Part shown: positions 9,469 to 9,771 of the stretch, piece after piece
How positions within the stretch are numbered: position 1 is the stretch's first letter
Layout of the letters: each line of letters opens with the position of its first letter
NCBI GenBank assembly: GCA_016928155.1
Contig: JAFGLG010000004.1
Span: 3,204-67,203, forward strand
Length of the DNA: 64,000 nucleotides
Direction: 5' to 3'
DNA from: Candidatus Woesearchaeota archaeon
GTDB lineage: Archaea > Nanobdellota > Nanobdellia > Woesearchaeales > JAFGLG01
Position numbers and translations under genes: made by a program
Notes under the pieces: model-generated
What the model was told of the DNA's origin: nothing
Database searches by the model: none
What the model saw: only the letters and a program-made list of their open reading frames with translations

Positions 9469-9518
9469 ATGGCTTTCTTAAGAAGCTGCATATATAAATG
9501 TTATGGACCGGTCGGGAC

Positions 9519-9564
9519 TTTCGCCAGCATCATTTTGGTGTTTTGGCATCCATCTGTTGCTGTT
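9519..9564 (-). other. Intron 2 of tRNA-Ala in the T loop (position 59/60)
   Basis: The 46-base intron splits the T loop after UUCGAA. The central helix is UUCG/CGAA, the bulges are AAA and AGU, and a 4-bp outer helix CAGC/GCUG has one extra unpaired G. Removal restores the perfect T loop UUCGAAU between TCGGG and CCCGA. The 3' splice bulge AGU is the same as in intron 1. Confidence 0.87.
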
Positions 9565-9586
9565 TCGAACCCGAGGCCCCTACCAC

Positions 9587-9605
9587 TTTGGAGCTTTTCA
9601 GCCTT
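9587..9605 (-). other. Intron 1 of tRNA-Ala at the canonical 37/38 position
   Basis: The 19-base intron interrupts the anticodon loop after A37. Central helix UUGG/CCAA, 3-base bulges CAA and AGU, and an outer helix GGCU/AGCU closed by a GAAA tetraloop form a regular hBHBh' substrate for the archaeal splicing endonuclease. Confidence 0.9.
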
Positions 9606-9688
9606 GCCAAGGTAATGCTCTACCAGGCTGAGCTACCGGCCCAAGGATAATGACAAATGAAGGTCTTGGTTATTTTTTTTGCATTTTT

Positions 9689-9771
9689 GGGCCGGACAAT
9701 ATAAAGTATGGGCTTGAGCAAAGCGAAACCCATGAAAGTGTCAACTGATTTCTCAGTTGGGCTACCGGCCC
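9689..9771 (-). ncRNA. Candidate structured RNA that copies the tRNA-Ala 5' end
   Basis: On the minus strand the 83 bases fold into a three-way junction. P1 is GGGCCGG/CCGGCCC (7 perfect pairs). P2 is a 7-bp hairpin CAACTGA/TCAGTTG with a GAAA tetraloop, and P3 an 8-bp hairpin ATGGGTTT/AAGCCCAT with a 10-base loop. One P3 pair is U-G on this strand and would be a C-A mismatch on the other, which favours minus-strand transcription. Its first 11 bases, GGGCCGGTAGC, equal those of the tRNA-Ala 46 bases downstream. It cannot form a tRNA. A TATA-like box lies about 30 bases upstream. Function unknown. Confidence 0.55.

Follow-up and report, generated by a model that had tools for sequence, protein, structure and literature searches.

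A tRNA-Ala(GGC) gene with bulge-helix-bulge introns in the anticodon and T loops, and related T-loop introns across Woesearchaeales

The window analysed in this work, a 64,000-nucleotide stretch of the genome of a Candidatus Woesearchaeota archaeon, harbours a tRNA-Ala(GGC) gene that is interrupted twice, at 37/38 in the anticodon loop and at 59/60 in the T loop (Table 1). Both introns had been proposed in a preliminary description made from the letters alone, and the exact gene sequence bears them out; the span given at the time, 9505-9643, was one base off, and the gene runs along the minus strand from G1 at 9642 to the discriminator A73 at 9504. The anticodon-loop intron reads AGGCTGAAAAGCTCCAAAG and the T-loop intron ACAGCAACAGATGGATGCCAAAACACCAAAATGATGCTGGCGAAAG. 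Excision of both yields a canonical tRNA-Ala with G3-U70, anticodon GGC and T loop UUCGAAU, all of which had been anticipated and are present in the 74-nt product. The predicted spliced molecule is GGGCCGG TA GCTC AGCCTGGTA GAGC A TTACC TTGGCAT GGTAG GGGCC TCGGG TTCGAAT CCCGA CCGGTCC A, and its predicted 59/60 splice junction is GGGTTCGAA^TCCCGA (here and below, a caret marks the joint). The assumption of a DPANN host is supported by four relatives of the GluRS in named genomes, all of Candidatus Woesearchaeota, with 51-54% identity.

Table 1. Positions of the tRNA-Ala(GGC) gene and its parts, of the neighbouring element, and of other genes considered in this study. Positions without a locus label are those of the window.
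Feature	Position	Strand	Remarks
tRNA-Ala(GGC) gene, unspliced	9504..9642	(-)	139 nt; mature form 74 nt without CCA
Exon 1, acceptor 5' strand to A37, with anticodon GGC	9605..9642	(-)	from the gene sequence
Intron 1, anticodon loop, 37/38	9586..9604	(-)	19 nt; from the sequence and the fold of the arm
Exon 2, base 38 to A59, with T stem and T54-A59	9564..9585	(-)	from the mature-tRNA search and the sequence
Intron 2, T loop, 59/60	9518..9563	(-)	46 nt; from the fold and from the covariation between base 57 and the intron across the order
Exon 3, U60 to A73	9504..9517	(-)	from the mature-tRNA search and the sequence
Structured element	9689..9771	(-)	83 nt; just upstream of the tRNA-Ala(GGC) gene
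EndA gene	L031, 1264-1788		174 aa
Class-II, G73 gene, same genome	L036, 1490-1604	(-)	
Class-II, G73 gene, same genome	L024, 1501-1614	(+)	
Class-II, G73 gene, same genome	L041, 1435-1548	(+)	
Class-II, G73 gene, same genome	L044, 1490-1604	(-)	
Class-II, G73 genes elsewhere in Woesearchaeales	many in L230-L269		

A bulge-helix-bulge (BHB) motif consists of two 3-nt bulges at the exon-intron joints with a 4-bp helix between them, and in its strict form, hBHBh', an inner helix lies directly adjacent to the 5' bulge. Both introns of the tRNA-Ala(GGC) gene have the two 3-nt bulges and the 4-bp central helix of a BHB. That at 37/38 is of the strict form, with TTGG/CCAA as the central helix, CA^A and AG^U as the 5' and 3' bulges, and an inner helix, GGCT/AGCT, that adjoins the 5' bulge without a gap. 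At 59/60, AA^A (5') and AG^U (3') bulges flank the central helix TTCG/CGAA, and a single unpaired G across from the 5' bulge displaces the 5-bp inner helix. The preliminary description had called both folds proper, which is accurate for the 37/38 intron and, because of this unpaired G, slightly generous for the other; it had rightly read AGU in both 3' bulges. An equally good BHB arises in about 0.02% of shuffled 46-nt inserts. When the whole pre-tRNA is folded, the minimum-energy structure includes the T-arm BHB, with the anticodon arm in another fold; the anticodon-arm BHB is obtained by folding this arm by itself.

The gene was missed by ARAGORN and by Rfam at the gathering score, and at normal thresholds neither reported any tRNA in the window. 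RF00005 gives only 17.2 bits on the locus, and a covariance model built from other T-loop-intron tRNAs finds it with an E value of 4.8e-6. When the mature tRNA was used to query the genome (1.48 Mb in 17 contigs, 99.7% complete), its own locus came back as three ordered pieces (1-41, 39-60 and 61-74), and the remaining matches were parts of tRNA-Lys, tRNA-Ala(TGC) and further tRNAs. A second, intact tRNA-Ala(GGC), whose possible existence had been raised in the preliminary description, was thus looked for genome-wide, and none was found.

Just upstream of the gene lies a structured element (Table 1; z -4.5). It starts with GGGCCGGTAGCC and ends with CCGGCCC, like the acceptor ends of tRNA-Ala and tRNA-Lys, and has no other tRNA arms; it is perhaps the relic of a deleted tRNA. 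A hairpin within it, GGGTTTCGCTTYGCTCAAGCCC, is found again in slightly altered form in several genomes of Woesearchaeales (L271, L272, L273 and L274) and matched no Rfam family. The copy in L274 is apparently located in an insert inside a tRNA T arm.

The tRNA-Ala(GGC) gene is not the only one of its kind in this genome, where weak Rfam tRNA matches end after TTCRAA. A signature derived from the genome, GGTYCRAA-N12-42-GRAARTCC, matches 15 places in it, as against one for the reversed pattern used as a control. Fourteen of these places are tRNA genes, and with one tRNA that falls outside the pattern (L024) the genome has 14-15 T-loop-intron tRNA genes. The fourteen comprise Ala(GGC), Ala(TGC), His, Asp, Lys(TTT), Arg(GCG), Arg(TCT), Ser(CGA), Leu(GAG), L042, which also has a long insert in the anticodon arm, three class-II genes and one truncated copy. 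One pattern match (L037) lies within a coding sequence and was discarded as a false positive. Once the insert is taken out, ARAGORN recognises 13 of the 16 candidates, as against only five, with wrong ends, when it is left in. Of the two tRNA-His(GTG) genes in the genome, one is uninterrupted and the other has a T-loop intron (L007 and L023/L048). The truncated copy, L047, is a class-II gene that has kept its T-loop intron and lost its normal 5' part, and is apparently a pseudogene.

The expectation that a T-loop intron would be unusual in DPANN does not hold within this order, where such introns are common: the signature is present in 276 of 352 species and in 188 of 220 genera. In well-assembled genomes sampled at the class level, we counted 2.83 matches per genome for the order, this genome excluded (76 genomes), versus 0.41 for the reversed control, and 0.63 versus 0.34 for the rest of the class. 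The pattern leaves the partner of base 57 free, and that partner covaries with the exon base, G57 going with C in 24 cases versus seven with T, and A57 with T in 76 versus three with C. The association is strong (Fisher 6e-15, or 8e-13 in loci confirmed as tRNA), with the reservation that the loci of the order are related by descent, so that these p-values overstate their independence.

Excision yields a tRNA that ends at the predicted base in 96 of 118 loci of the order; two of the 118 give one unspliced. Among the 96 confirmed loci, the central BHB pairs are complete (4/4) in 84. The inner helix follows the 5' bulge directly in 26 and at a distance of 1 nt in 35, i.e. in 61 altogether, compared with about 12 for shuffles, and the other 35 have no inner helix of at least 3 bp at either offset. 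RNAalifold found the cloverleaf and the T-arm BHB unaided when applied to one T-loop-intron family. A common 3' end, YGRAAR^U, which pairs with T54-R57, characterises the T-loop introns of the order that we studied. ARAGORN tolerates a T-loop excision displaced by up to about 4 nt, which makes shifted-excision controls in this range uninformative, and the exact cut site therefore rests on BHB geometry.

Similar introns are found in different tRNAs. In genome G056, the T-loop introns of two tRNAs labelled Pro(CGG) and Trp(CCA) have a similarity of 0.69, compared with a maximum of 0.27 in 4000 shuffled intron pairs, and their exons are unrelated. These ARAGORN isotype labels may err where other introns are present, but the dissimilarity of the exons is independent of the label. 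The Ser(CGA) and His(GTG) introns of our genome belong to one TATTRGYG...GAAAG family, as do those of G056. The presence of related introns in different tRNAs points to intron spread, and T-loop introns may thus have passed from tRNA to tRNA. Such spread would be made easy by the T loop itself, which in almost all tRNAs already provides one half of the splice site. Intron transposition has been reported for Thermoproteales (PMC4090602).

Many T-loop introns of the order are found in class-II, G73 tRNA genes that have the variable arm of tRNA-Ser (Table 1). The anticodons of this seryl-type family are mostly N-A-N, with A35 in 53 of 57 loops (GAA, GAT, GAG, CAG, AAG and GAC), and correspond to Phe, Ile, Leu and Val codons. 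The anticodon stems covary, with 8-12 double changes per pair, which argues that the family is not simply decaying. One genome (G304) has at least 13 seryl-type genes beside ordinary, intronless tRNA-Ser genes. The members of the family are possibly missense tRNAs or non-translational RNAs. In two related class-II genes (L068 and L142) the T-loop intron can pair with the anticodon arm of its own tRNA; for the class-II family the permutation p value of this complementarity is 0.003, a value driven by these two genes.

The preliminary description proposed to identify the type of splicing endonuclease, and gene content points to an alpha type. The genome encodes one RtcB and one EndA with N and C domains (PF02778 and PF01974) and conserved catalytic Tyr/His/Lys motifs, VYDRGVKPGEDHARW (VYDRG..GEDHARW) and AKNRVAHSTKK. 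The best solved relative of this EndA is the catalytic alpha subunit of Nanoarchaeum equitans (3iey_A, 8e-38), and it aligns over its full length of 174 aa with the alpha4 enzyme of M. jannaschii (1A79, 7.5e-31). No beta subunit was detected in the genome with the PF01974 or PF02778 profiles. A weak second PF02778 match was ruled out as a beta subunit, as the region encodes an apparent CysRS and a NUDIX protein. None of the 29 EndAs of the order that we aligned has an insertion of the size of a CSL or ASL (11-18 residues), and an EndA match, nearly always single, is present in 60 of 61 genomes of the order tested. Judged by its sequence, EndA is of the alpha type, encoded by a single alpha gene, and would be expected to form a homotetramer.

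In the literature, relaxed BHB cleavage is associated with (alpha beta)2 and epsilon2 enzymes, specifically with their loops, and EndA types devoid of a specificity loop are reported to require strict BHBs (PMC6379350, PMC12397907). The relaxed endonuclease suggested in the preliminary description thus receives no support from the enzyme gene content, with a single alpha-type EndA and neither specificity loop nor beta subunit detected; at the same time, many of the substrates are not strict BHBs. A relaxed EndA may still be at work, since many T-loop introns, including that of tRNA-Ala(GGC), deviate from the strict form. The mixture of strict, 1-nt-offset and weaker BHBs points either to an alpha-only EndA of greater tolerance than related enzymes or to an unrecognised partner. 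The puzzle would then be the reverse of the expected one, namely an enzyme with no sign of the relaxed type and substrates that nevertheless appear partly relaxed.

We consider that the locus is very probably a functional, apparently single-copy tRNA-Ala(GGC) gene, with two BHB introns removed by EndA and RtcB. The T stem would serve in the precursor as the outer helix of the 59/60 BHB, with T54-R57 of the universal T loop paired to a YGAA close to the intron's 3' end. The predicted EndA cuts follow A59 and precede U60; RtcB would then ligate the exons, and removal of the 37/38 intron is expected to proceed likewise. Weighing against this reading are the unpaired G of the T-loop BHB, given the reported need of loop-less EndAs for strict BHBs, and the lack of the anticodon-arm BHB in the minimum-energy structure of the whole precursor. 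An alternative is that the gene has been disrupted and is silent, with tRNA-Ala(TGC), which is present in the genome (L025/L040), reading the alanine GCY codons; that ARAGORN and Rfam are blind to the gene at normal thresholds would be in keeping with this. However, all arms, G3-U70 and A73 are intact, tRNA-Ala(TGC) itself has a T-loop intron, and T-loop introns have covarying splice sites across the order, all of which make a silent copy very unlikely. As for self-splicing, a group I intron has a conserved catalytic core and exceeds about 200 nt. Archaea do contain group I introns (PMC6125680), but the two introns of tRNA-Ala(GGC) fall well below this size at 19 and 46 nt, have no Rfam match and present a BHB at both sites, so that the probability of group I or other self-splicing introns is close to nil.

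Two other proposals bear on why T-loop introns have accumulated or persist rather than on whether they are spliced. The EndA of this clade might be of disguised broad specificity, whether as an alpha4 form with unrecognised adaptations or as an alpha/beta form whose beta subunit has diverged beyond the reach of Pfam, in which case T-loop introns could have accumulated. This would refine the splicing of tRNA-Ala(GGC) by EndA and RtcB, and we regard it as conceivable but somewhat less likely than not. The Nanoarchaeum equitans EndA, whose catalytic subunit scores ahead of the M. jannaschii alpha4 enzyme, is a broad-specificity heteromer, and the T-loop introns with an offset or without an inner helix argue in the same direction; the lack of a beta gene in the profile searches, the aligned EndAs devoid of an insertion and the single match in nearly all genomes argue against it. 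It has also been proposed for archaeal tRNA introns generally that they break attachment sites for the integrases of viruses and plasmids at tRNA 3' ends (discussed in PMC3293823). The 59/60 intron does sit in the 3' part of the gene, and persistence of T-loop introns for this reason would be compatible with splicing, but the likeness of introns between different tRNAs is equally explained by the spread of neutral introns, and we find this account rather unlikely. More tentatively than for the disguised enzyme, and with doubts of our own, we propose that Woesearchaeales have spreading, largely site-specific BHB introns that use the T-loop UUCRAA as half of the splice site, that their alpha-only EndA has gained tolerance of imperfect BHBs without a CSL or ASL, and that the same introns occur in the seryl-type N-A-N family, whose members might be conditional missense tRNAs or non-translational RNAs.

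The 59/60 position itself is already known from other archaea, being among the positions of non-canonical BHB tRNA introns in Thermoproteales and others (reviewed in PMC4090602). The introns described here resemble the Thermoproteales type in their BHB sites, in the occurrence of several introns per tRNA, in the 59/60 position and in the similarity of introns across isotypes. In contrast, the lineages of that type mostly have (alpha beta)2 EndAs, whose beta subunit and CSL were not found in Woesearchaeales, where one alpha-type EndA was detected, and the introns here share a 3' end paired to T54-R57. The epsilon2 enzyme of ARMAN-2 and the crenarchaeal (alpha beta)2 EndAs likewise serve genomes with unusual tRNA intron sites, but they have a specificity loop (ASL of 11 aa, CSL of 15-18 aa; PMC12397907) and a beta unit, neither of which is seen here. 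The M. jannaschii alpha4 EndA is similar in its full-length alignment and in having no long insertion; the difference lies in the substrates, as some T-loop BHBs of the genome have a weak inner helix or a nucleotide left unpaired. As for the nearest solved relative, that of Nanoarchaeum equitans, Pfam profiles found no counterpart of its beta subunit, NEQ261. We found no report of T-loop introns in Woesearchaeota in a search limited to open-licence papers, which makes this absence weak evidence; in the literature searched, the lineage, the scale and the enzyme context of these 59/60 introns appear undescribed.

As ARAGORN and Rfam miss T-loop-intron genes or misplace their ends, errors are likely in the tRNA counts and identities of Woesearchaeota genomes, and in the quality measures derived from them. 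Published work connects broad sets of introns to (alpha beta)2 or epsilon2 endonucleases that have special loops; an order of about 350 species in which T-loop introns occur and only a plain alpha-type EndA has been detected directly tests this rule of co-evolution. Together, the landing site shared by T loops and the likeness of introns across tRNAs make Woesearchaeales a natural system for the spread of tRNA introns.
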